Below are positions 5,106 through 51,096 of a stretch of DNA of 51,096 nucleotides, piece by piece (position 1 is the stretch's first letter; every line of letters starts with the position of its first letter). The translations under genes and the position numbers were made by a program. The notes beneath the pieces are model-generated. The model saw only the letters and a program-made list of their open reading frames with translations. It was not told the DNA's origin and did not search any database. The DNA is taken from positions 1 through 51,096 of the forward strand of contig CALMDO010000074.1 of the NCBI GenBank assembly GCA_937862805.1, given 5' to 3'. Origin of the DNA: an uncultured Bacteroidota bacterium (GTDB taxonomy: Bacteria > Bacteroidota > Bacteroidia > Bacteroidales > FEN-979).

Positions 5106-6535
5106 ACGTTTAGTTTAAGCAAAGAAATATTCTCAACGTGCTGGGTTTGGGGAAACATATCCACCGGCTGGTTTTTTTCACAGGTGTACTTTTCCGATAA
5201 AAGGAGTAAATCACGGGCTTGGGTAGCGGGATTGCAACTAATGTAGATGATGGTGGGTGGTGCCATGGCCAGCAAGGTCCTGATCACTTTTTCATGCATT
5301 CCCGAGCGGGGCGGATCCGTTATGATCAGGTCCGGTACCGGATTTATAATAAAAAAATCAGGGGTCAACAGTTTTTCCACTTCACCGGTGATAAAAGTAA
5401 CATTGTCAAAACCATTCAACCTTGCATTCATTTGGGCATCTTCAATGGCAGCGGCCACCGATTCCATCCCGATCACTTTTTTCACCATGGGGGCGATGTA
5501 ATTGGCGATGGTACCGGTACCTGTGTACAAATCGTACACCACTTCATTCCCTTTAAACGCTGCGAATTCTGCAGCAGCCCGGTAAAGTGCGACCGCCTGA
5601 TGAGGATTGGTCTGGTAGAACGAGACCGGCCCGATGCTGAAACGAACCGGGGGTTGATTTTCGAAAAAGGCAGGCATCTGCTCTGTCATGTACTCTTTGC
5701 CGTAAAAAAACGTCAGTGGCAGATCGTTGATCACATCGTTTTTTTTAGCGTTGATCACGTAATATATGGAGGTGACAGCGGGGAAAGCGTCGTGTAAGGC
5801 GTTCAGCAAATCATGAATGACATCCTTTCGATCTTCTCTGAATACCAGAATGACCATCAAATCGCCGGTTGTCGTGTTGCGGATAATCAGGTTTCTCAGA
5901 AAGCCTGACCAGGTCCTGACATCATAAAAAGCGAGCCCGTGGTCGAGGGCGTACTGCCTGACAAACAACCGGATATGGTTCGAAGGCTCAGGTTGGAGGT
6001 AACAGCATTCAATATCCAGTACTTTGTCAAACATCCGGGGGATGTGAAACCCAAGGGCATTCATCTCATGCTGAGGAATCGCCTCTTTGGGTAGCTCACC
6101 GGTTAGCCAGCGATGCGTGGAAAAAGTATATTCGAGTTTATTGCGGTAGAACTTTTGTTCCCCTGATCCCAAGATTGGAAGGATCAGAGGGGTTGGGATC
6201 TTTCCGATCCTGACCAGGTTATCCTCCACCATTTTCTGTTTATAAAAAAGCTGATCGGAGTAGTGCAGGTGTTGCCATTTACATCCTCCGCAGGTGCCGA
6301 AATGGCTGCAAAAAGGAGTTGCCCGTTTTTCACTGAACCGATGGAAACGGATAACCCGGGCTTCACACCACGATTTTTTTTTTCGGATGACCCGCAAGTC
6401 TGCCACATCACCCGGAACGGCGTAAGGGACAAAAATTACCAGGTCTCCGACACGGGCCACGGCATTCCCTTCCGACCCGGCGTCGAGGATCTCCACTTGT
6501 TCAAAAACCAACAGTTCATTTTTACCTTTTCGCAT
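5102..6535 (-). CDS. rlmD: 23S rRNA (uracil-C5)-methyltransferase, RlmD/RumA family
   Basis: Uses S-adenosylmethionine to methylate a uracil C5 of 23S rRNA. From ATG 6535 the protein is 477 residues. It has an N-terminal TRAM domain (VFEQVEILDAGSEGNAVAR), the [4Fe-4S] cysteine motif CSHFGTCGGCKWQ, the SAM-binding VYDLYTGTGTIANYIA, and the catalytic ISCNPATQARDL. Starts at 6562 and 6631 are possible but only lengthen the overlap with hydE; 6535 gives a 14-base overlap and a normal TRAM start. RlmD is one of several paralogues in Bacteroidetes, so the exact uracil is inferred. Confidence 0.9.
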   Translation of the reverse strand: MRKGKNELLVFEQVEILDAGSEGNAVARVGDLVIFVPYAVPGDVADLRVIRKKKSWCEARVIRFHRFSEKRATPFCSHFGTCGGCKWQHLHYSDQLFYKQKMVEDNLVRIGKIPTPLILPILGSGEQKFYRNKLEYTFSTHRWLTGELPKEAIPQHEMNALGFHIPRMFDKVLDIECCYLQPEPSNHIRLFVRQYALDHGLAFYDVRTWSGFLRNLIIRNTTTGDLMVILVFREDRKDVIHDLLNALHDAFPAVTSIYYVINAKKNDVINDLPLTFFYGKEYMTEQMPAFFENQPPVRFSIGPVSFYQTNPHQAVALYRAAAEFAAFKGNEVVYDLYTGTGTIANYIAPMVKKVIGMESVAAAIEDAQMNARLNGFDNVTFITGEVEKLLTPDFFIINPVPDLIITDPPRSGMHEKVIRTLLAMAPPTIIYISCNPATQARDLLLLSEKYTCEKNQPVDMFPQTQHVENISLLKLNV

Positions 6536-7601
6536 AGTGTGCTGAATCTCCCCATTCTCCATAAGCAACGGTATCGCCGGCCATAGAAATCCTGGCTTCC
6601 AGACAGGTGCGGCATTCTGCCGCCTCTTCATCCAGGCAGGGTTTATTCTCGTACAGCAGGTAATCCTCTCTGTACTTGACCGGAGTGATGTTGGGCATGA
6701 TCACGTTGGCCCCGGCCAGGAGGGCTTTTTCTCTCCCCTGGGGATCGATGGTTTGCATGGCAGTCGTTGCTGCAATGTTGATGTCTTTCATCATGATCCG
6801 GAGCAGCGCGACCATTTTCAACGAGAGATCAAATCGGGTTTTTAAAGGAAGCAACTGATCCCTGTACTGATAGAGAGGGGTGTCTTGGTGTTCGATATAG
6901 GGGCCCATTCCGGCCATGTCGATATCGAGATCGCGGAAGAATAAAAGATCGTTGGCCAGGTGGGCCGTGGTTTGAAATGGTAATCCAATCATCACCCCGG
7001 TACCAACCTGGTATCCCGTTTTCCTGAGAAGATGGAGCGCTTCAAGCCTTTTCTGGTAACTGTGACGCTGGTTTGCAGGATGGAGCTTTTCATACAACAC
7101 GGGATCCGATTCTTCGATCCGCAAGAGATACCGGTGTGCTCCTGCTTCAAACCATCTCCGGTAGGTCTCTTCTGTCTGTTCTCCTAATGATAAAGTGACA
7201 TGCAGCTTGCCTCCTGTTCTCTGGTGAATGTTCCGCAGCAGGGAGGCAATTTTGTTAACATACATTTTACCCGATTGCTCTCCTGCCTGAATGACAATGG
7301 AACCGTAATGACTCTCAAAAGCAAAGTCTGCTGCTTCCATCACCTCCTGATCGGTCATCCGGTAGCGTTGATACCTGCGATTGGCAGAACGGATCCCGCA
7401 ATAAAAACAATTCTTTGAACAGGCATTGGAATATTCAATCAATCCTCTGAAATAGACTTTTTTCCCTACATTTTCTGCTTTCACACTTTGCGAAAGGGTA
7501 AATAGTTTTTTTTTCGCTTCACCTTCCGCTTCAAGCAACGCTATCAGATCATCCCGTGAAAATGAAGGTTTTTCCAAAATTCTTTCAGTTGCTTTATTCA
7601 C
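6522..7601 (-). CDS. hydE: [FeFe]-hydrogenase H-cluster maturase HydE (radical SAM)
   Basis: Radical SAM enzyme needed, with HydF and HydG, to build the diiron part of the H-cluster. The 359-residue protein has the radical SAM cysteines C61-x3-C65-x2-C68 (YSNACSKNCFYCGIR), followed by a TIM-barrel pattern typical of HydE (VIQAGEQSGKMYV, HRYLLRIEESD, GVMIGLPFQTTAHLANDL). The C-terminal cysteines ECRTCLEAR may hold the optional second cluster. It starts with GTG at 7601. It lies about 38 kb from the hydrogenase genes and overlaps the rRNA methyltransferase rlmD. HydF and HydG are not in the window. BioB- and PylB-like enzymes are relatives, but the overall match favours HydE. Confidence 0.9.
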   Translation of the reverse strand: MNKATERILEKPSFSRDDLIALLEAEGEAKKKLFTLSQSVKAENVGKKVYFRGLIEYSNACSKNCFYCGIRSANRRYQRYRMTDQEVMEAADFAFESHYGSIVIQAGEQSGKMYVNKIASLLRNIHQRTGGKLHVTLSLGEQTEETYRRWFEAGAHRYLLRIEESDPVLYEKLHPANQRHSYQKRLEALHLLRKTGYQVGTGVMIGLPFQTTAHLANDLLFFRDLDIDMAGMGPYIEHQDTPLYQYRDQLLPLKTRFDLSLKMVALLRIMMKDINIAATTAMQTIDPQGREKALLAGANVIMPNITPVKYREDYLLYENKPCLDEEAAECRTCLEARISMAGDTVAYGEWGDSAHYAKR

Positions 7602-40937: not shown

Positions 40938-41866
40938 CAGAAAATCAGTTCATCTACCTGGTTCTTATCGATGGTCAATTGCTTTTTTAGATCCTCCTGT
41001 GTTGTGAGCACCCGTTCCTCGCGCATTTGTTTGTGAAAAAGCAGGGTCACTACCTGCCCTTCAATCTTTCCGAAATTTTCAAAAAGATGCACCTCCACCT
41101 CCGTGTTGATGGGATCTTGCATGTTTTTTCGAACGAAACACATGGCCCTCGAAAAACAATCTTCTCCGGTTACAGTGACCGCGTATACCCCGTTGGGAGG
41201 TATCAGCTTGCAATCTTCTTCAATTTTAACAGAATAACTCGGAAAACCTATTTCCTCAAGGGTTGAACTACTTTTTTCTGTTATTCCGGTAATAATGTAC
41301 TGGTGGTCAAGATAGGCATTGGCTTTCTGAATGTTCCCCTCCATCAGGGCTTTCCGGATCTTAGTCGAACTGACCGATTCATTTTGGATATCCTGCTCCG
41401 CAATCTCTTCTACCTCGAAACCATATTGTTTCCCGAGTTTTCGGAGTGCATCATAGTCTCCCTCCCTGTTGTGCCCGAAATGGTGATTAAACCCGATGAC
41501 GATCTTCCGGGCGTGAAGTTTGTCGAGCAAAATATTCTGAACAAATTCGAGCGAACTGATCTTTGAAAAAGCAAGGGTGAATTCAACAATGATCAGATTG
41601 TCGAGCCCTGCTTTTTGCAATAAAGATATTTTTTCCCGCTGCGAATTAATCAGGAAAAGATCCTTGCCAACTGTCTCCGGATAAAGCACTTTGCGGGGAT
41701 GGGGATGAAAAGTAATCAATACGGTCTCCCCGTCAATCTCCAAAGCCAGTTTTTTCAAACGGTTCAGAATTACTTTGTGACCGATATGAACTCCGTCAAA
41801 AGAACCGGTTGTCACCACCGGATTTCGGATAGAGGAGAGATGATCAAAACCATAGAAAATTTTCAC
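40937..41866 (-). CDS. ribF: bifunctional riboflavin kinase / FAD synthetase
   Basis: Makes FMN and FAD from riboflavin. The 309-residue protein has the nucleotidyltransferase domain (GSFDGVHIGHKVILN, residues 22-36; VIGFNHHFGHNREGDYDAL) and the flavokinase domain (about 185-300), linked by VSSTKIRKALMEG. The start is GTG 41866, giving a GTGA overlap with the rex stop that suggests translational coupling. FMN is needed by the hydrogenase subunit HydB encoded upstream in the same unit. The kinase-domain motif usually written PTAN is not obvious (PSYSVKIEEDC region). Confidence 0.9.
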   Translation of the reverse strand: MKIFYGFDHLSSIRNPVVTTGSFDGVHIGHKVILNRLKKLALEIDGETVLITFHPHPRKVLYPETVGKDLFLINSQREKISLLQKAGLDNLIIVEFTLAFSKISSLEFVQNILLDKLHARKIVIGFNHHFGHNREGDYDALRKLGKQYGFEVEEIAEQDIQNESVSSTKIRKALMEGNIQKANAYLDHQYIITGITEKSSSTLEEIGFPSYSVKIEEDCKLIPPNGVYAVTVTGEDCFSRAMCFVRKNMQDPINTEVEVHLFENFGKIEGQVVTLLFHKQMREERVLTTQEDLKKQLTIDKNQVDELIF

Positions 41867-42519
41867 CGGGAACCTTCCTGTTTGTAACGTTCATCATTTT
41901 TCTTGGCGAAGAAAGCGACTTTTTCCAAAGAGGTAATCATGTCGTATTCTTCAAGGTAAACATAAGCAGGGACATTCAGGGGTTTGGCCGTGAAATTGAA
42001 AATCCCTTTAACCCCGGCCAGAATCATCGTTTCGGCAATTTCCGGAGCTTGCTCTGAAGGTACAGCCACTATACCGATGGTGATGTTGTTCTGCCTGATA
42101 ATGTCAGTCAACTGATTGATATGGTAACAGGCTACCCCGTCGTAAACCCTGTTGATTTTTTCAGGATTGATATCAAAAGCAGCGATAATCGCCAGTTTAG
42201 ACCTTTTACCCTTAAAATAACTGATCATTGCTTTCCCTAAATTTCCTAATCCGACAACGGCAACCCGCTGCCCCTTTTCCGAATCAATGATCCTTCCGAT
42301 CAACTCAATCAGTTCCCTGATATCATAACCTTTCCGAAGGTTGCCGGAATATCCGATCAGCATTAGATCCCGGCGTACCTGTACCGGTGTGATGTGAAGC
42401 ATCTGCGCAATCTCATGAGAGAAAACATGCGTTTTCTCTTTCGAAAGGATCATCAGCAATGCCCGTCTGTACTGGCTTAAACGTTCTACAGTCTTATGGG
42501 GTAAGTTTTTTACATACAT
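41863..42519 (-). CDS. rex: redox-sensing transcriptional repressor Rex
   Basis: NADH/NAD+-responsive repressor of fermentation and hydrogenase genes. The 218-residue protein has an N-terminal winged-helix domain (about 1-80: KTVERLSQYRRAL, FSHEIAQMLHITPVQVRRDL, IGYSGNLRKGYDI) and a Rossmann domain with VVGLGNLGKAM (about residue 93), FDINPEKI and GIFNFTAKPLNVP. It is five bases after the receiver-kinase gene and coupled to ribF by a GTGA overlap. Its place inside the hydrogenase unit points to autoregulation; candidate half-sites lie in the hyd promoter (50308-50357). Confidence 0.95.
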   Translation of the reverse strand: MYVKNLPHKTVERLSQYRRALLMILSKEKTHVFSHEIAQMLHITPVQVRRDLMLIGYSGNLRKGYDIRELIELIGRIIDSEKGQRVAVVGLGNLGKAMISYFKGKRSKLAIIAAFDINPEKINRVYDGVACYHINQLTDIIRQNNITIGIVAVPSEQAPEIAETMILAGVKGIFNFTAKPLNVPAYVYLEEYDMITSLEKVAFFAKKNDERYKQEGSR

Positions 42520-42524
42520 TGATT

Positions 42525-43643
42525 TTAGATTGGTAAGGTTACTGTAAATGTACTTCCTGCATCCGGTATGCTGGTCACTTCGATTCTACCGGAATAATTA
42601 TCAACGAGTTTTTTAATGATGGGCAATCCTAAGCCACTTCCTGAAATATTTTTTGTCTTCTCATTTTTGATCCTGACAAAATCATCAAAGATCTTTTCAA
42701 TCTCTGCCGGACTCAGCCCAATGCCGCTATCCTCAACTTTAATCCGAATACAATCATCGGTTCTTTGCAGATCACAAGTGACGTGCCCTCCCTCTTTGTT
42801 GTATTTTATTGCATTGGAAATAAGATTGTTAAATATGATTTCAATCTCTTCTGAGTCGGCTTGCACAATCAGGGGAGAGACCCCGTGCAGGGTTAAAGTC
42901 ACATCCCGCTGTATCGCATACGGGCGCATAGTATCCATGGCAGTCCTTGCTAACTGAACGAGATCAACATCGGTGATGTTTCTTTTAGCTTTTCCTGATT
43001 CAACCCGCGTAAGATCCAGTAGGTCGAGAATGAGGTTCCGCATTCCCTTGATCCGGTCCAGCGAACGATCGATGATGGTGTCGTAATCTTCAATCCTGCT
43101 TCCCAGTTGTCTTTCTCTGACCATCTTCAGATAACCCTCAATGGCATTGAGCGGAGCCTTCAATTCATGCGACAACATTGAAAGGAATGTAAAACGGATC
43201 TGTTTACCGGTATCCTGGAGTTTGTTGGTCATCTTTTTCAAAAACACCCTTTTTGTGATGTTTTCGATGGATGATTTCAACTCCTGCGGTGTAAAGGGTT
43301 TGGGAATGAAATCATAAGCCCCGTCGCTGGTGGCTTTAACCGCCAACTCGAGCGAAGCATAAGAAGTGATCATCACGACAATGATGTTTTTCTTCTTTTT
43401 TTTAATGTACTCCAGCACTTCCACTCCTTGAATCCCGGGTAATTTGTTGTCAAGTAACAAAATATCAGGGATGTTATTCTCGATGATCTCAATACCGGCT
43501 TCCCCGGTAGCCGCCTCCAGCACTTCAAAATCAAATGCTTCATCCATAAAAGGATAATCCACCCTGAAATTTTTCAGGATCCTTGTGACACCGCTACGAA
43601 TGCCGGGTTCATCATCAACAACAAGAATTTTTAAAGTCGACAT
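42525..43643 (-). CDS. receiver-histidine kinase hybrid
   Basis: A 372-residue cytoplasmic signalling protein with the domains reversed relative to a usual hybrid: receiver first (about 5-125, VVDDEPGIRSGVTR, phospho-acceptor in ILLLDNKLPGIQG, Lys in FIPKPFTP), then HisKA (MLSHELKAPLNAIEGYL, about 175) and HATPase (NNLISNAIKYNKEG, DSGIGLSP, GSGLGLPI). It has no membrane segment and no DNA-binding domain. It lies between the small response regulator and rex and may relay phosphate from the H-cluster sensor kinase. Confidence 0.9.
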   Translation of the reverse strand: MSTLKILVVDDEPGIRSGVTRILKNFRVDYPFMDEAFDFEVLEAATGEAGIEIIENNIPDILLLDNKLPGIQGVEVLEYIKKKKKNIIVVMITSYASLELAVKATSDGAYDFIPKPFTPQELKSSIENITKRVFLKKMTNKLQDTGKQIRFTFLSMLSHELKAPLNAIEGYLKMVRERQLGSRIEDYDTIIDRSLDRIKGMRNLILDLLDLTRVESGKAKRNITDVDLVQLARTAMDTMRPYAIQRDVTLTLHGVSPLIVQADSEEIEIIFNNLISNAIKYNKEGGHVTCDLQRTDDCIRIKVEDSGIGLSPAEIEKIFDDFVRIKNEKTKNISGSGLGLPIIKKLVDNYSGRIEVTSIPDAGSTFTVTLPI

Positions 43644-43699: not shown

Positions 43700-44098
43700 C
43701 TATGATTTCTCAAGAAGCCGGTCGATGGCCTCTTTCAATTTTTCCGTCCGGATCCCTTTGTCCAGAAAACAATCAGCTTTGATCCATTTGCGGTTGTTTT
43801 CATCGTTGATGTCAAAACTGATACCGGTCTCAGCTGTTACTCCCGAAGCAATGATGATCGGCAAATCAGGATATTTTTTTTTCATTTTATAACAGAGAAT
43901 AAACCCACTGTCTTCATTTTCCATCATCAGGTCAAGGATGGCCAGGTCAGGCTTGACTTTCTCAATCAACTCCTCTGCCTCTTTTTGGCTTTCTGCCGTA
44001 ATCGTTTGGTATCCAAAATTTTGGATCTTAATCTGTAATTGGTACAGATAGTCCTGGTCATCATCCACAATTAAAATGGTCACATTCCCGGCTCTCAT
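43700..44098 (-). CDS. stand-alone response regulator receiver
   Basis: A 132-residue receiver with no output domain. It has ILIVDDDQDYLYQLQIKI, the phospho-acceptor in LAILDLMMENEDSG, IIIASGVTA and the Lys of CFLDKGIRTEKL. An insertion (SFDINDENNRKWIKAD) precedes the last strand. It follows the H-cluster sensor kinase by 32 bases and is the likely first phosphate acceptor in that relay. Confidence 0.9.
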   Translation of the reverse strand: MRAGNVTILIVDDDQDYLYQLQIKIQNFGYQTITAESQKEAEELIEKVKPDLAILDLMMENEDSGFILCYKMKKKYPDLPIIIASGVTAETGISFDINDENNRKWIKADCFLDKGIRTEKLKEAIDRLLEKS

Positions 44099-44130: not shown

Positions 44131-46113
44131 TTATACCCCTCTTGGAAGGGTTATTCTGAAAGTGGTCCCGGTCGGCCCCGCCGCGGGATCATCGTTGGAA
44201 TCGACATGGATCTTTCCCTTGTGCATTTTAACGATTCCATAAATGAGCGCCAGGCCCAGACCGGTTCCTTTTCCCATCTCTTTTGTAGTGAAAAATGGTG
44301 TGAAAAGCTTGTCCATGTTCTCTTTGGCGATCCCGGTCCCGGTATCTTTCACCAGGAAGCTGATTTCCTCCTTGTCACCTTCCACACTTACTGTCAGTTG
44401 CCCACCTGCAGGCATAGCTTCGACAGCATTCTTTTCTAGGTTTGTCAGCACCTGCATCATCTGATCGATATCCAGCGCGGCAATTGGATCTTGAATAGCG
44501 GGTTCAATGTTAATGGTAATATTGTCGGGTTTGATGATGGAGTTGATGCTGTGTTGAAGAAATTTAACGACATCGGTCTCCGACAGGTTCACCTGGTTTT
44601 TCCGGGCAAAATTCAACAACCCGCTGACGATCTTTTTACAACGGTCGGCCTGCTCCACGATCAGTTTGAGGTCATCTCGTACAGGAGCCCCTTCGGGCGC
44701 TTCATCCATTAAAATGCTGCTGTACATGGTAATTACCCCTAAAGGGTTATTCAGTTCGTGCGCAATACCGGCTGAAAGTTGTCCCATGTGCGCCAATTTT
44801 TCCGATTGTTTGAGTGCAGCTTTGGCCTTTGCCAGCTTTTCGTTGGAAACATTCAGATTGGTAATTGAATCATGGAGTTTTTCAATGGTGTAAGGTAAGC
44901 ACATCTCCGTTTCAGCTAACCCTTTGACGATTGCGTTGGCATGATCGATGCAGGTGTCATACCCGCAGGCACCACAATTTAAATGATCCGTAACGGAATA
45001 CTTCCCCATCCCTTGCAGGGCTTTTTCCAGCGCCTCCTCAGAAGCAGCCGTCAGACGCCGGTCTTCAGGCGAGAAACTTTGGGAAAGATCGAGTGAGCTG
45101 TATAACTCCAATTCTTTTTTCCAGTTTCCCTCGTTGATACTTTTGAGTTTCTTTGCTACGTATTCACCCACGGCAGCGCTCCGCGAGAAACGCATTCCTC
45201 CGGAAGAGGTCCCCGGCCCCATGATGCATCCCTCACAACACAACAACATCAGGTGTTTATCGCGAATATAACCCTCTTCAAACTCCTTGATGGCCTCTTT
45301 AAAATTAACCCTTCCTTCTGCTATCACAACGCGCTCCTCAGGGATTGCTTCCTGACTGTTAGCTGTATAATATAATCCCCGACTGATGGGGAATATGGAT
45401 CCTTTTCCGCTATACGGCGGATCAAATTCAGAGGGAGTGGTGTTGGCCGGCGTGATTCCCCGTTTACGAAACATGCTTCTGAGTTCCTGGAAAGTCAGAA
45501 CCTCGTCAACTTCTTCTGCTTCTGCTTTTTTCGCAAAACAAGGACCGATGAAGACAACCTTTAACCCTTCACCGTGCTTTTTCTTCATCACCCGGTTCAT
45601 TGCCACCATCGGGGAGGCGATTGGGGCCAGGTAAGGAACCATCTCAGGATGGTAATGACGAATGAAATAGACAATCGCGGGGCAATCCGAAGAAATATCA
45701 CCCTCTCGCGCATCTTCTTTCATCCTTTTCTCATATTCCAGTGCTACCAAATCTGCACCAAAAGACACCTCCGTTACATAATTGAACCCGATCTTACGGA
45801 TCATTCCCACAAGAATCCGGTAATCACTAACCTCTTCAAATTCCGCAGGAAAACTGGGCGCAATGCAAGCTGCAATCGGGTTTTCGGAAGCTAACATCTC
45901 CTCGACTTCAGTAATTGAATTGAGCGGGATCTTTGCACCCTGGCTGCAAACTTTAACACAATTACCGCAACCGATACAGCGATCGTTGAGCACCTCCGCC
46001 TGCCCGTTGATGATCTTGATCGCCTTGACCGGACACTCTCTGACACAGGTAAAACATACCCTGCAGCGATCCTTGAGAGTGAAAACCAATTGTCGATGGT
46101 ACGAATGACTCAT
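44131..46113 (-). CDS. hydrogenase-like (H-cluster domain) sensor histidine kinase
   Basis: A 660-residue cytoplasmic fusion. Residues 17-60 form two ferredoxin [4Fe-4S] motifs. Residues about 75-320 form an [FeFe]-hydrogenase-like domain that keeps the cluster cysteines C144 (SSDCP), C192 (GPCFAKK), C292 and C296 (CCEGC). C380/C383/C388/C405 (CGACGYDTC) make an extra Fe-S module, then a coil, HisKA with His452 (AGIAHELNNPL) and HATPase (NLEKNAVEAM, GTGLGLALIYG). The proton-relay cysteine before C144 is Asp143, and the glutamates equivalent to E279/E282 are Tyr/Arg, so turnover is unlikely; H2, CO or redox sensing is inferred. Its ATG overlaps the hydA stop. Known group C sensory hydrogenases are the nearest relatives, but no PAS domain is seen. 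Confidence 0.88.
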   Translation of the reverse strand: MSHSYHRQLVFTLKDRCRVCFTCVRECPVKAIKIINGQAEVLNDRCIGCGNCVKVCSQGAKIPLNSITEVEEMLASENPIAACIAPSFPAEFEEVSDYRILVGMIRKIGFNYVTEVSFGADLVALEYEKRMKEDAREGDISSDCPAIVYFIRHYHPEMVPYLAPIASPMVAMNRVMKKKHGEGLKVVFIGPCFAKKAEAEEVDEVLTFQELRSMFRKRGITPANTTPSEFDPPYSGKGSIFPISRGLYYTANSQEAIPEERVVIAEGRVNFKEAIKEFEEGYIRDKHLMLLCCEGCIMGPGTSSGGMRFSRSAAVGEYVAKKLKSINEGNWKKELELYSSLDLSQSFSPEDRRLTAASEEALEKALQGMGKYSVTDHLNCGACGYDTCIDHANAIVKGLAETEMCLPYTIEKLHDSITNLNVSNEKLAKAKAALKQSEKLAHMGQLSAGIAHELNNPLGVITMYSSILMDEAPEGAPVRDDLKLIVEQADRCKKIVSGLLNFARKNQVNLSETDVVKFLQHSINSIIKPDNITINIEPAIQDPIAALDIDQMMQVLTNLEKNAVEAMPAGGQLTVSVEGDKEEISFLVKDTGTGIAKENMDKLFTPFFTTKEMGKGTGLGLALIYGIVKMHKGKIHVDSNDDPAAGPTGTTFRITLPRGV

Positions 46114-47831
46114 TTTTCTTGCCTGGCTACACGTGAAACATGCAAAAACTCCCGGTCCCTGTCATTGTTGGGCTTGCCAAGGAAATTTTCATAAAGACCT
46201 GTAATCGTGGGGTTTTTATGAGCAGCTTTAATGATCTCTTCTTCGTCAATATCATAAAGGATCTTCATCCGCGATTTAAGACTCTTCTCATCTGCTCCCT
46301 GGCGTTGACCACCCCCGTTCAAACATCCGTATGGGCAGGCCATCACCTCCACGATGTGAATCTCCCTGCGACCTGCTTCAATTTCTTCCAGCAAATGTTT
46401 TGCATGGGCCAGGCCACTGACAGAGACAACATTGATAATTTGCTTGCCGATCTTAATCCGTGCCTCTTTCCGGGTCTTCAACCCCCTGAGATCCTGAATC
46501 TTCAAAGGATTCATTTCCTGACCGGTCATCTGGAAATGAAGGGTTCTGATCAATCCTTCCAGATGTCCGCCTGCCATCCCGAACAGTTTCCCTGAAGAAC
46601 TTCTGATGCTGAAAGCCGAATCTTCCGGTTCAGGTTCAAGAAATGAGAAATCAATTCCCATTAAATGAATCAGCTTGATTATCTCCCGGTTGGTGAGTAC
46701 CGCATCCACAAAGGGAACCTGGGTATCTTTAATGAAATCCTTGCCGGCTTCCTCTTTTTTGGCAGTACAAGGCATGGCAGAAACAACAAACACGTCCTCC
46801 GCTTTTTGCCCGGCCGAAGTAGTAATGTATTGTTTGATCATGCGACCCATGATCTGCTGAGGCGAACGGGTGGTCGAAAGAGAGGATAAATAAACGGGTT
46901 TGAGTTCCTCGACATACCTGACCCACGAGGGACAACAACTGGTGAAAAAGGGGAGACCCTCCTGAGTTCTTATTCTTTCAGCTATTTCAGCAGCCTCCTC
47001 CATAAGGGTCAGATCAGCTGCCATAGATATGTCGAAAACCTGCCGGAACCCCATCTTTTTCATCGCGGCACGGACGATGTTCAGTACATCTTTGGTCGAT
47101 TTCAGGTTAAATTCTTCAGCAATGGCAGCCGGTAAAGTCGGTGAGAATTGTACGACAGGGTAAAGCCGCGGATTGTTTAACGCTTCCAGAACCGTGTGAA
47201 TGGCTGTTTTTTCAATTAAGGCTCCCGTGGGACAAACCGTTATGCATTGCCCGCATTTTACACAGGCATTGGTGTTCAACCCCTTGTTATAAGTTGTTCC
47301 GATCCTGCTTTCACTGCCCCGCCCGATGATCTCGATGGCCCCCACACCGATCATTTCATTGCAAACCCTGATGCAACGCTCACATAATATACATTTGGCC
47401 GGATCCCGTTCAATGGAGGGACATGCTTTATCAATCTGAACAGGGATGCGCCGCGACTGGTATTTCCGTTCCCTTATCTGCATTTCGTACGACAATTCCT
47501 GAAGCTCACACCGGCCATTCTTTTCGCAATACAGACAATCGTTGGGATGCCCGGCCAACAGCAATTCAACCAACGTTTTCCGGGCTTTAAGTACTCTTGG
47601 TGTGTGGGTCCTGATCTTCATCCACTCCTCAACAGGATGGGAGCATGAGGGAACCAATCCTGGTAACCCGTCCACCTCCACTACACACAACCTGCAATTT
47701 CCGGTAGGAGTAAATCCGTTGATATGACACAAGGTGGGAACTTTAACTCCAATCCTGTCCAGGACGTTCTTGATGGTCTCCCCGCGCCGGGCGATCACAT
47801 GTTCGTCGTTGACTTCAATTTCAAATTGCAT
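46110..47831 (-). CDS. hydA: [FeFe]-hydrogenase catalytic subunit HydA
   Basis: Catalytic subunit of an NADH/ferredoxin-linked, probably electron-bifurcating, hydrogenase. The 573-residue protein has an N-terminal [2Fe-2S] domain (C35, C46, C49, C63), a His-Cys [4Fe-4S] motif (H95, C99, C102, C108), two ferredoxin clusters (C147-C157, C190-C200) and the H-cluster domain: L1 TSCCPSW (C299, C300), L2 MPCTAKK (C355), L3 EVMACPYGC (C499, C503). Proton-path residues E279, E282 and S319 are present. Residues around the active site differ from the clostridial enzyme: S230, T232, Y501. It follows hydB after six bases and overlaps the sensor kinase by four. Confidence 0.95.
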   Translation of the reverse strand: MQFEIEVNDEHVIARRGETIKNVLDRIGVKVPTLCHINGFTPTGNCRLCVVEVDGLPGLVPSCSHPVEEWMKIRTHTPRVLKARKTLVELLLAGHPNDCLYCEKNGRCELQELSYEMQIRERKYQSRRIPVQIDKACPSIERDPAKCILCERCIRVCNEMIGVGAIEIIGRGSESRIGTTYNKGLNTNACVKCGQCITVCPTGALIEKTAIHTVLEALNNPRLYPVVQFSPTLPAAIAEEFNLKSTKDVLNIVRAAMKKMGFRQVFDISMAADLTLMEEAAEIAERIRTQEGLPFFTSCCPSWVRYVEELKPVYLSSLSTTRSPQQIMGRMIKQYITTSAGQKAEDVFVVSAMPCTAKKEEAGKDFIKDTQVPFVDAVLTNREIIKLIHLMGIDFSFLEPEPEDSAFSIRSSSGKLFGMAGGHLEGLIRTLHFQMTGQEMNPLKIQDLRGLKTRKEARIKIGKQIINVVSVSGLAHAKHLLEEIEAGRREIHIVEVMACPYGCLNGGGQRQGADEKSLKSRMKILYDIDEEEIIKAAHKNPTITGLYENFLGKPNNDRDREFLHVSRVARQEK

Positions 47832-47837
47832 TTTCTT

Positions 47838-49787
47838 TTATTTAAAGTAAATAGCATTGAACTTACAGCTATCAAAACAGATCCCGCAACCGGTACATTT
47901 GTTTTCAATGATAAAATGAGGCATCTTCACTGTACCGATGATCGCATTCTCCGGACATTTTCTCTGGCAGATGTTACAGCCGTTGCAAAGGTCCACATCG
48001 ATGAAGAAAGTTCGCAGATCGTGACATACCCCTGCAGCACAACGCCGGTCGAAAATATGCTCTTCATATTCTTCCCTGAACCACTTCAGACTTGAAAGAA
48101 CAGGTCCGGGAGCGTTTTGCCCCAACCCGCACAGCGAAGTATCCCGGATAACCTCGGCCAGGTTCTCGAGTTGAACCACCCCTTTGAATCTTTCAAGCGT
48201 CTCATGAGAGCTCTCCTCCCGCGGCCGACGCGTAATCCCTTCAAGGATCTCTAACATCCTTTTTGTTCCTTCCCGGCAGGGAATGCATTTTCCACAACTC
48301 TCTTTTTGGAGAAATTCCATAAAATATTTCGAGAGACTGACCATGCAGGTCTCCTCGTCTAACAATACCATGCCTCCGATCCCGATACCGGCACCTATCT
48401 CCTGAAGTGTATCAAAACCAATCTCCGTCTCCAAATCCTGTGGTGGAACAAATACTCCGGAAGGCCCTCCTAAAAGAACAGCTTTCAATTGTTTGCCGTT
48501 CTTTATACCGCCTGCCAAAGTATTCACAATATCGATCAGGCGGGTCCCCATCGGGACCTCCACAACCCCGGTCCTTACCCCTTTGCCGGAGATGCAAATG
48601 ACCTTCGTCCCCTTACTGGTTTTGGTCCCGATTGCTTTGAACCATGCAGGACCATTCTCAAGGATAGCGGGAACATTGGCCAGCGTCTCGATGTTATTGA
48701 CAACCGTCGGACGACCCAAAAGACCCTTCTCCGCAGGGAAAGGTGGCTTTTCCCTCGGGATTCCCCTTCCTCCTTCAAGACTGGCAATCAAAGCGGTTTC
48801 TTCACCGCATACAAAAGCTCCGGCTCCCTGGCTGATCTGCACGGTCAGGTTGAAGCCGCTTCCGAAAATGTTTTCCCCCAGGAAACCACACTCCCTGGCC
48901 TGCCTGATCGCATCACGGAGAATAACGATAGCCCGTTTGTAATCCGACCGTAAATAGATGTAAGCTTTTTTAGCCCCGATCGCATAAGCAGCAATGGCAA
49001 TCCCTTCGATTACCCGATGGGGATCTCCCTCCAGCAATGTACGATCCATATAAGCACCCGGATCGCTTTCATCCGCGTTGCAAATAAGATATTTCTGATC
49101 ACTGCCCGTCTCCAACGCCACCAACCATTTCCTGCCGGTCAGGTAACCACCTCCGGCCCTCCCTCTCAGTTCGCTTTGCTCCACGATTTCACACACTTTT
49201 TCAGGGGTGTAGTTGAGCACCGTTTTGAAAAGCGACTTATATCCACCGCGGGCGAGGTAATCATGAATATCCTCCGGTGAAATGATCCCCGTGTTTTTCA
49301 GTACCATGCGGTATTGTAATCCGAAAAAGGGTAATTCCTCCAGACTGGTTATCCCGGGCCACTCTTCGTGGCCATGGAAACGGTACTGCCCCAGGATGTT
49401 ATCGTGGGGCAGGGTATGATGAAAAACACTGTTGAGCAAATCATCCACTTTCCCGGCTGTGGCATTGGCAAAGGAGAGCCGGGTCTTCCCCGGAAGCTGA
49501 ACGTCGAGAAGTGGCTCCGCAGAACAAAGACCCATACAACCGACCTTGATAATATCAGCCTTGATCTTGTTTTCTGTAAGGTATGTTTCAACAGCTTTAA
49601 GTGTTTTGTCAGCCCCCGCTGTAATGCCGCAACTTCCCATGCCGATAAAAATGGCAGGCTGTGACAGTTTTTCACGCCTTACCCGGGACAGGAGTTCAGC
49701 AGTACTTTTATCATATATCCCGGAATAGTTTTTGACAACCTTCTCTACCAGGAATTCTGTGAGCTTTGGTGTACCTGAACCTGTCAT
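47838..49787 (-). CDS. hydB: hydrogenase NADH-oxidising flavoprotein subunit HydB (NuoF-like)
   Basis: FMN and Fe-S subunit that exchanges electrons with NADH. The 649-residue protein has an N-terminal thioredoxin-like [2Fe-2S] domain (about 40-120; cysteines in GMGSCGITAG and VGCMGLCSAE), the NuoF-type FMN/NADH domain (RGRAGGGYLTGRKW, CNADESDPGAYMD, EETALIASLEGGRGIPR), the [4Fe-4S] motif ESCGKCIPCREG, and two C-terminal ferredoxin clusters (CNGCNICQRKCPENA, CTGCGICFDSC). This is the HydB arrangement of trimeric hydrogenases. It starts one base after the hydC stop. Confidence 0.95.
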   Translation of the reverse strand: MTGSGTPKLTEFLVEKVVKNYSGIYDKSTAELLSRVRREKLSQPAIFIGMGSCGITAGADKTLKAVETYLTENKIKADIIKVGCMGLCSAEPLLDVQLPGKTRLSFANATAGKVDDLLNSVFHHTLPHDNILGQYRFHGHEEWPGITSLEELPFFGLQYRMVLKNTGIISPEDIHDYLARGGYKSLFKTVLNYTPEKVCEIVEQSELRGRAGGGYLTGRKWLVALETGSDQKYLICNADESDPGAYMDRTLLEGDPHRVIEGIAIAAYAIGAKKAYIYLRSDYKRAIVILRDAIRQARECGFLGENIFGSGFNLTVQISQGAGAFVCGEETALIASLEGGRGIPREKPPFPAEKGLLGRPTVVNNIETLANVPAILENGPAWFKAIGTKTSKGTKVICISGKGVRTGVVEVPMGTRLIDIVNTLAGGIKNGKQLKAVLLGGPSGVFVPPQDLETEIGFDTLQEIGAGIGIGGMVLLDEETCMVSLSKYFMEFLQKESCGKCIPCREGTKRMLEILEGITRRPREESSHETLERFKGVVQLENLAEVIRDTSLCGLGQNAPGPVLSSLKWFREEYEEHIFDRRCAAGVCHDLRTFFIDVDLCNGCNICQRKCPENAIIGTVKMPHFIIENKCTGCGICFDSCKFNAIYFK

Positions 49788-49788
49788 T

Positions 49789-50253
49789 TTAAACTTTTTT
49801 TTCTTTTATGACCCCGATGATTTTTCTCAATTCCTCTTCATTGATCCTCGGGTACCGTTCGCCATTGATACTGATCACTGGCGACTGATCGCACGCACCC
49901 ATACATGGAACCGCCTCAAGACTGAATTGTCCGTCACGGGAAGTATTTCCCGCTTTGATCTTAAGAAACTTTTCGACCGCGGTGAGAAGAGAGACAGAAC
50001 CTCCCAGATGGCAACCGGTCCCGTCACAAACCTGAATATGGAAAGCGCCATGAGGACGGAAAAGGAACTGGTTATAAAAAGCAGCTACACCGTATACCTT
50101 GTTGACCGGCAACTCTAAATGTTGAGCTACAGCTGTGAGTATCTCACCTGTTAACGATCCTTTTTCTTCCTGGATCTCCTGAAGGATAGGTATCAATCCT
50201 TCCTTTTTTCCTGCAGGGTATTTGGAAAATAGATCGAGAAGAAGCTGTTCCAT
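49789..50253 (-). CDS. hydC: hydrogenase small [2Fe-2S] subunit HydC (NuoE-like)
   Basis: Thioredoxin-like [2Fe-2S] subunit of the trimeric hydrogenase. From ATG 50253 it has 154 residues. The helical N-terminus precedes the cluster cysteines in CDGTGCHLGG and PCMGACDQSP, the NuoE C-x4-C and C-x3-C pattern. A TTG at 50271 would add six residues (MQQDDI) and is less likely. It is the first gene of the hydCBA unit, 1 base before hydB. Confidence 0.94.
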   Translation of the reverse strand: MEQLLLDLFSKYPAGKKEGLIPILQEIQEEKGSLTGEILTAVAQHLELPVNKVYGVAAFYNQFLFRPHGAFHIQVCDGTGCHLGGSVSLLTAVEKFLKIKAGNTSRDGQFSLEAVPCMGACDQSPVISINGERYPRINEEELRKIIGVIKEKKV

Positions 50254-50284
50254 AATGTCATCCTGTTGCAATTGTTAATAATGA

Positions 50285-50316: not shown

Positions 50317-50357
50317 TTTTACCTGTGAAAAATTTAGCAATGTGAAAAAATAAACAA
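50308..50357. promoter_or_regulatory. candidate Rex operator half-sites in the divergent hyd control region
   Basis: Plus strand shows TTGTTAA (50308-50314), then two tandem 17-base units TGTGAAAAATTTAGCAA (50324-50340) and TGTGAAAAAATAAACAA (50341-50357), identical at 14 of 17 positions. Both resemble Rex-type sites (TTGTGAAA or TTGTTAA half-sites). Full palindromy is imperfect: the first unit matches TGTGAAAnnTTTCACA at all left and five of seven right positions. Confidence 0.45.
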
Positions 50358-50394: not shown

Positions 50395-50429
50395 TTTAGC
50401 GAAATAACAAACAGATATTTCTATCTTTG
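50395..50429 (+). promoter_or_regulatory. promoter for the second hydrogenase-like sensor gene
   Basis: TATCTTTG (50422-50429) is an exact -7 match 18 bases before ATG 50448. TTTA at 50395-50398 (23-base gap) is a weak -33 candidate. Confidence 0.5.
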
Positions 50430-50447
50430 AACATCATTTACCGATCA

Positions 50448-51096
50448 ATGAAGACCGACCCGTTGTTGCTTATTCATCCCGAAGATTGCATTAAATGCTA
50501 TGCGTGCATCAGAATTTGCCCGGTCAAAGCCATCCGGGTCGACGTCAACACCGAATTTCCATCAATTCTTCCTGAACGGTGCATTGGCTGTGGCAGTTGT
50601 TACCGGATTTGTTCACCGTCGGCCATAACCTTCCGGAGTTCGATAGCGGAAACCCGCGACCTGCTCGCCTCAGGCCAACAGGTAGCCGCCATCTGTGACC
50701 CGACCATCTCCGGTGAATTTCATGATATTACCGACTACCGGAAATTCGTCGAGATGATCAAAAACCTTGGCTTTACATACGTCAGTGAAGTCTCTTTCGG
50801 CGTTGACCTTGTTGCGGAACAGTATAAGGAGATTTTTACCCATTTCAAAGGAAAATACCTGATCTCAGCCAACTGCCCGGCGGTGGTATCTTTTATTGAG
50901 AAATACTACCCCGGGCTCATCAGTAACCTGGTTCCCGTGGTGTCTCCCATGGCCGCCACAGCCGCGGTGATCCGGAAGAAATACGGACCCGCCATCAAGG
51001 TGGTCTTTATCGGACCCTGCATTGCAACCAAAGAAGAAGCACTGAGATACGATGGCGATATGACCATTGACGCCGTTCTCACTTTCGTCGAACTGC
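50448..51096 (+). CDS. second hydrogenase-like H-cluster-domain sensor, 3' end beyond window
   Basis: A gene cut by the window edge; 216 codons are present. It is a paralogue of the H-cluster sensor kinase: two ferredoxin motifs (C14-C24 in CIKCYACIRICP, C45-C55 in CIGCGSCYRIC), then the hydrogenase-like domain with FGVDLVAEQY, the L1 equivalent SANCPAVV (C143, with Asn142 where the enzyme has Cys299) and the L2 equivalent FIGPCIATKEEA (C191). The proton-relay glutamates are absent, so it is probably sensory. The output domain lies outside; in related group C proteins it may be a PAS-kinase or a PP2C/SpoIIE phosphatase. It is divergent from hydCBA and shares its control region. Confidence 0.85.
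   Translation, partial: MKTDPLLLIHPEDCIKCYACIRICPVKAIRVDVNTEFPSILPERCIGCGSCYRICSPSAITFRSSIAETRDLLASGQQVAAICDPTISGEFHDITDYRKFVEMIKNLGFTYVSEVSFGVDLVAEQYKEIFTHFKGKYLISANCPAVVSFIEKYYPGLISNLVPVVSPMAATAAVIRKKYGPAIKVVFIGPCIATKEEALRYDGDMTIDAVLTFVEL

Follow-up and report, generated by a model that had tools for sequence, protein, structure and literature searches.

A histidine kinase with a hydrogenase-derived sensor and a putative variant cluster site, encoded beside hydA in an uncultured Bacteroidales bacterium

Main finding

The window, the whole stretch of 51,096 nucleotides analysed here, corresponds to a complete contig of a draft genome in 329 contigs. It encodes a 660-aa histidine kinase at 44131–46113 on the minus strand, which the preliminary description of this DNA did not state. 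The sensor of this kinase is related to [FeFe] hydrogenases. Histidine-kinase-linked sensory hydrogenases are already described, also in Bacteroidales, and the protein is of this known kind with what appears to be a variant cluster site. We propose, with a probability of about 0.52, that it is a sensory hydrogenase of HydDB group C1 (histidine-kinase-linked), in which an H-cluster senses H2 and drives the kinase directly. A slow H-cluster H2 sensor is the favoured reading, and its main rival is a redox sensor with only [4Fe-4S] clusters.

Domain organization of the sensor kinase

The kinase is composed of the following parts, all on the minus strand.

44131..46113, minus: sensor kinase, 660 aa, with ferredoxin motifs, H-domain, FeS module, HisKA and HATPase (ORF and Pfam)
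45934..46074, minus: two [4Fe-4S] ferredoxin motifs, residues 14–60 (Pfam Fer4; eight Cys invariant in 110/110)
45214..45876, minus: H-domain (Fe_hyd_lg_C), residues 80–300 (Pfam; Foldseek to HydA structures)
44893..44982, minus: FeS module Cx2Cx4Cx16C, residues 378–407 (PF04060; four Cys invariant in 110/110)
44812..44898, minus: modelled continuous helix, residues 406–434, from the FeS module to the kinase, no PAS (AlphaFold, low confidence)
44596..44787, minus: HisKA with phospho-acceptor His452 (Pfam; conservation)
44140..44472, minus: HATPase_c (Pfam)

The Pfam matches are Fe_hyd_lg_C (157.7 bits, cut-off 22.1), PF04060 (35.9 bits, cut-off 23), HisKA (52.4 bits, cut-off 26.9) and HATPase_c (88.4 bits, cut-off 26.4). 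The ORF, these domains and the overlap with hydA agree with the earlier claim of a histidine kinase with a hydrogenase-derived sensor, encoded together with a hydrogenase. The claim that no PAS domain lies between sensor and kinase also holds, as no PAS family is matched in Pfam at E ≤ 0.001 and none is seen in the AlphaFold model. The four-cysteine module before HisKA (C380, C383, C388 and C405) is present as described, and is not special to this protein: Cx2Cx4Cx16C is a feature of group C sensors, and sensors of group D are described with it too (PMC8163306). His452, previously named as the phospho-acceptor, is inside HisKA and invariant in 110/110 full-length kinases. The H, N and G boxes are intact, and their residues are invariant or nearly so (109–110/110).

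The AlphaFold2 model has a mean pLDDT of 75 and a pTM of 0.55, with pLDDT below 50 in the segments 1–6, 17–48, 252–258 and 430–456. Along the linking helix 406–434 the block means of pLDDT are about 65, 58, 51 and 36, and the direct helix between FeS module and kinase is a low-confidence feature of the model. Foldseek matched the model to HydA structures (best E 5e-20) and to ZraS. In a search for solved group C or D structures, no HydS is among the structure names listed.

Pocket and cluster loop of the H-domain

Residue counts refer to 110 distinct full-length kinase relatives. Positions follow CpI numbering, in which we take the H-domain motifs to be C299, C300, M353, C355, K358, C499 and C503. 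C144 (position C300), C192 (C355), K195 (K358) and C296 (C503) are each found in 110/110 kinases. Position 353 is Gly (G190) in 110/110, and the Ser or Thr of group D is absent there. The relay position and the L3 motif are as follows.

45685..45687, minus: Asp143 at the proton-relay Cys299 position (Asp in 107/110)
45217..45249, minus: L3 motif, residues 289–299; C293 and C296 invariant, C292 not (conservation, register)

The preliminary description listed C144, C192, C292 and C296 as the cubane ligands. Three of these stand. The fourth ligand is probably C293, not C292, judging from conservation and register: C293 is kept in 110/110, against 101/110 for C292, which is replaced by S, G, A or T in nine proteins. 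The register E289-x-L291-x-C293 fits ExMxC499 of hydrogenases, so the CxxxC loop would be one residue shorter (CxxC). L291 is found in 110/110 kinases, and Glu at 289 in 82/110, with Met in the window's own kinase. Both cysteines, C292 and C293, occur in this kinase; it is conservation and register that favour CxxC over C499xxxC503, and on these grounds C292 was set aside as a cubane ligand. The CxxxC spacing via C292 is possible in the 101 proteins with both cysteines, this one included. CxxxC is kept in the PAS (5/5), MCP (4/4), group D (7/7) and group B (5/5) types, in Ruminococcus albus HydS, and in 128/129 HydA, the remaining one being unreadable. The K-K motif is present in 120/120 kinases when anchored on the aligned Cys; an unanchored raw-motif scan finds it in 112/120, plus odd hits elsewhere.

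The claims on the L2-motif Lys (K195), on Asp143 in place of Cys299, and on Tyr and Arg in place of E279 and E282 were correct for this protein. Tyr127 is Tyr or Phe in 110/110, and Arg130 is at a variable position (Leu 51/110, Arg 10/110). Overall, the kinases mostly have other residues where the group A proton path has E279, E282, R286 and S319. The label "probably non-catalytic" is not safe, because Asp is the only high-activity replacement of the equivalent Cys: in saturation mutagenesis of C298 in CaHydA only Asp retained high activity, at about half of kcat (PMC3485046). At position 299, the sensory sequences of HydDB have Cys in 17%, Ala in ~43%, Pro in ~10% and Ser in ~10%, and Asp is not named in the accessible text of that source (PMC10055695).

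The 17 kinase orthologues from outside the class all read L-F-C-E-G-C, which puts Phe at position 292 and Cys at position 293. They carry A, P or S at 299, so Asp is not general. As they share C293 and not Asp, the proposed loop shift is older or more general than the Asp.

Operon, receivers and maturases

The gene order is hydC-hydB-hydA-kinase-Rec-RecHK-rex, and the window also encodes hydE.

49789..50271, minus: hydC (NuoE-like)
47838..49787, minus: hydB (NuoF-like)
46110..47831, minus: hydA, [FeFe] hydrogenase of the bifurcating type, with relay Cys, M353, K358 and the cubane Cys in place
43700..44098, minus: single receiver domain (Pfam); Asp56 invariant in 112/112
42525..43643, minus: receiver-HisKA-HATPase protein (Pfam); Asp65 and His159 invariant in 87/87
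41863..42519, minus: rex, redox-sensing repressor; near the kinase in 50/83 loci with room
6522..7601, minus: hydE, H-cluster maturase (TIGR03956, 352.6 bits, cut-off 254.6)

Synteny was counted in 100 distinct kinase loci, each gene being scored only where the contig leaves room. Near the kinase are HydA upstream (90/94), HydB (85/87), Rec (90/91), Rec-HK (84/85) and a divergent C3-type sensor (41/70). The two downstream receivers reported earlier are conserved beside the kinase. The ATGA overlap with hydA is real (4 bp, 46110–46113) and not general: between HydA and the kinase, distances of -62 to 467 bp occur, with exactly -4 in 13/90 orthologous pairs. Rex is the only DNA-binding output found within the cassette. 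A weak candidate Rex site is seen at 50323–50340, in the gap between hydC and the divergent sensor, with 3 mismatches to the Rex consensus and 0.15 such sites expected by chance. The promoter scan (15 vs 12.3 expected) and the terminator scan (14 vs 9.3) are not clearly above shuffles.

The genes hydG and hydF are on other contigs of the same genome. HydG is over the cut-off in 66/67 carrier genomes; the sole carrier without it (G085) also has no HydF over the cut-off, and this genome may be incomplete. The co-occurrence of HydG and HydF is not decisive as a test of cluster retention, because the carriers examined hold other hydrogenases.

Distribution and phylogeny

The sensor part is matched over about 400 of 415 residues, with 47–100% identity, in 67/149 genomes (own included), which speaks against a chance ORF. 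At least 557 genome-contig stretches encode a relative, and the 80 loci kept are all titled Bacteroidetes or Bacteroidota MAGs, mostly Bacteroidales. In a phylum-wide draw of 296 genomes, 20 (own included) have a match at E ≤ 1e-60. Twenty-four loci come from other drawn genomes, all outside the class: 17 are kinase-fused orthologues with 40–44% sensor identity (L216–L232), and seven are proteins of 571–595 aa without a kinase match (L233–L239). Class labels are best BLAST hits to eight seeds, with one protein of 569 aa (L069) moved by hand from the kinase to the PAS class. Trees were built on subsets thinned by identity and random draw.

Based on the trees, the kinase groups with sensory types (PAS/HydS, including R. 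albus HydS; T. maritima HydS is not in the trees) and away from HydA. A placement among catalytic hydrogenases, which would have spoken against a sensor, was not obtained. The sensory clade is separate from groups A and B, and group D-type proteins form another clade. From the HydA root, the branching order is B, D, MCP, PAS/HydS, and kinase + C3, with supports of 81–100. Kinases and C3-type sensors are united with a support of 99, with L054, a kinase outside the main group of both, at 84, and with the out-of-class kinases at 100. C3-type sensors branch among the kinases once the out-of-class kinases are included; without these, the nesting depends on L054 alone and is weak (0.19 and 58 in two trees).

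The window contains one such sensor beside the operon.

50427..51096, plus: second, divergent H-domain sensor of group C3 type, truncated at the contig end (Pfam)

In relatives of this sensor, the next gene encodes 394 aa, with SpoIIE over the cut-off in 3/3 tested flanks, and a PAS-like C-terminal region is over the Pfam cut-off in 1/2 tested. One relative, L036:13792-16971, is a divergent C3-type sensor with an adjacent SpoIIE gene. Among 52 phosphatase-linked C3-type proteins compared, not all of which are beside a kinase, K358 is lost in 51 and kept in one (L064). They have Tyr or Phe at 292, and Cys at 293 is kept in 33/52 and lost in 19/52. Since these sensors branch among the kinases, the fold and FeS sites alone seem not to require the Lys.

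Pocket changes in the neighbouring HydA

The comparison of partner hydrogenases covers 101 distinct HydA-kinase pairs; it excludes eight loci with no reachable HydA and all kinases shorter than 600 aa. All four cubane Cys are kept in 101/101 paired HydA. C299 is changed in 26/101, K358 in 20/101, and either of them in 29/101; loss of K358 took at least 8 changes (Fitch count on a FastTree tree). Seven of the 101 have Asp at 299 with K358 kept. The partner kinases keep K195 in 101/101 and Asp143 in 98/101. By these residue counts, the kinase pocket is better conserved than the pocket of the adjoining HydA. In the window itself, HydA is canonical.

Raw motif reading covered 19 HydA, among them that of the window and one that has no kinase neighbour. 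In L016, L015, L021, L030, L160 and L179, K358 of the operon HydA is replaced by M, R or G with the cubane Cys intact; L015 and L016 belong to the window's own genus. At L061:6184-7767, the same operon position is taken by a HydA-like protein of 527 aa whose H-domain is weak (52.6 bits). In each of eight genomes examined, one or more further HydA have both C299 and K358. Several of these read TSCSP, with Ser at the C300 position, as does HydA1 of the A. woodii HydABC structure. The genome G113, with a degenerate operon HydA, was considered as a natural experiment and is not decisive; two strong HydA are encoded elsewhere in it.

It can be speculated, as an unlikely scenario, that an operon which once paired an enzyme with its sensor is evolving towards sensing alone. 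The kinase would keep the H2-binding pocket while HydA repeatedly loses its own (relay Cys or cyanide Lys) and retains the cubane Cys; HydABC would then serve not as a hydrogenase but as the NADH/ferredoxin wire of the kinase, and the pocketless phosphatase-linked twin would read redox state only.

Proposed function and alternatives

From the domains, gene order, invariant residues and clade described above, we infer the cluster, its ligand, the direction of the response and the phosphotransfer partners as follows. HydE, HydF and HydG would mature an H-cluster in the H-domain. H2, or an H2-coupled ferredoxin pool acting through the N-terminal clusters, would alter the state of this cluster. 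The change might run through the FeS module and the helix straight into the DHp helices, with no PAS relay, and set the autophosphorylation of His452. The phosphoryl group could pass to the adjoining single receiver, the receiver-kinase, or both. The output may act on hydrogenase or redox genes and tune them jointly with Rex, as well as with the divergent phosphatase-linked sensor in loci that have one. This reading is strengthened by the domains and fold, by the sensory clade shared with R. albus HydS, by the loss of K358 in 51/52 C3-type sensors, by the invariant C144, C192, K195, C293, C296 and G190, by hydE, hydF and hydG in the genome, the kept operon and the invariant phospho-residues. 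Asp at 299 as an activity-keeping replacement (PMC3485046) and the altered fermentation of relatives after deletion of HfsB, a HydS homologue (PMC5707799, PMC11837493), also strengthen it. It is weakened by the mostly replaced proton-path residues, by the Lys kept in one C3-type sensor (L064), by the limited occurrence of Asp, by the low confidence of the helix and by Rex as the only DNA-binding output.

The shortened loop also weakens it, as it may not hold the [2Fe] subsite. In this case the kinase could be a [4Fe-4S]-only sensor, with the cubane kept, that reads the redox state of ferredoxin or NADH. This is possible, though clearly less probable than the H2 sensor. C293xxC296 in 110/110 kinases and 17/17 out-of-class orthologues is consistent with it, and the clade tolerates loss of the pocket, C3-type sensors having lost K358 (51/52) and Cys293 (19/52). 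In Hydrogenedentota, H-cluster motifs were hardly found in C1 proteins, as far as the available text of PMC11406978 reports. However, K195 (110/110), G190 (110/110) and Asp143 (107/110) stay in the kinases with no evident reason if [2Fe] is absent, while a related branch lost the Lys. The kept Lys is no proof of [2Fe], since H-domain relatives without [2Fe] (Nar1/NARF) keep a Lys at the K358 place too.

If Asp143 keeps proton transfer, the protein could instead be a slow hydrogenase that also signals, its turnover setting the state of the N-terminal clusters. The C298D variant of CaHydA (PMC3485046) and the seven adjoining HydA with Asp and K358 agree with this, but the other proton-path residues are mostly missing, and slow turnover is seen in TmHydS and TamHydS, neither of which has the Cys (PMC8163306, PMC10055695), which makes this reading improbable. 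CO, proposed as a ligand in the preliminary description, does bind H-clusters; CO or another inhibitor as the physiological ligand is nevertheless very improbable, as TamHydS and TmHydS are reported to be more CO-tolerant (PMC8163306). It is equally hard to credit that the protein is a structural or assembly partner of HydABC with a vestigial kinase part: the kinase adjoins hydA in 90/94 loci with room, yet its H, N and G box residues are conserved (109–110/110), with conserved receivers alongside.

Comparison with known systems

The contrast with described group C hydrogenases drawn earlier was too strong. HydDB groups C1 and C3 (PMC5037454) and C1 proteins of two other lineages are precedents, and group D also has no PAS. 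HydDB defines C1 as "histidine kinase-linked", and its C1 line names only histidine kinases in the available text (PMC5037454). Here the H-domain is linked to a histidine kinase by fusion, with the PAS usual for group C absent. HATPase-bearing C1 proteins are reported in Hydrogenedentota, 21/53 of them beside group A3 genes (PMC11406978), and Petrimonas has a C1 protein encoded close to hnd genes (PMC7768429). They resemble the present protein as H-domain sensors tied to a histidine kinase near hydrogenase genes, whereas the accessible descriptions give no CxxC loop, Asp at 299, or Rec and Rec-HK pair.

HydS of T. maritima and R. albus shares the two [4Fe-4S] clusters, an H-domain with Gly at 353, and the FeS module, and R. 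albus HydS sits in the sister clade of kinase + C3. In contrast, HydS has no fused kinase; PAS is reported for TmHydS, whereas the R. albus protein has CxxxC and lies next to a gene annotated as SpoIIE. At position 299, R. albus HydS has Cys and TmHydS has Ala. TamHydS (group D, M2e) is alike in the absence of PAS, the FeS module and Leu at 497, but has no fused kinase, has Ser at 353, and belongs with group D in a separate clade. Regulatory [NiFe] hydrogenases with HoxJ are similar in that a slow hydrogenase feeds a histidine kinase (PMC8163306, PMC5707799), although their metal site is unrelated and the kinase is a separate protein. In literature titles and abstract openings, which are weak evidence of absence, no description was found of the CxxC loop, the Asp-bearing kinase clade or the decaying partner HydA.

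The role of sensory [FeFe] hydrogenases is called putative in a review (PMC8924675). For H2 sensing by such proteins, and for the route by which a signal would leave the H-domain, the direct fusion of sensor and kinase offers an assay in a single protein, in which phosphorylation of His452 is compared in the presence and absence of H2. Natural comparisons are also provided by the relay Asp, the shortened loop and the pairing of a kinase branch with a phosphatase branch.

Other H-domain proteins

The genome has three kinds of H-domain sensors: the kinase, the C3-type sensor and a group D candidate. The last is a 459-aa TamHydS-like protein (L035:584-1963, contig C249) with Thr at 353, Phe at 299 and the FeS module; no PAS is seen in it, and a HATPase-like ORF of 144 aa precedes it. 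A C-terminal piece of a second HydA of this genome is found on contig C230 (L075:1-765). Elsewhere, L071:7304-11365 encodes a 1353-aa chain with an H-domain, several PAS domains and SpoIIE.
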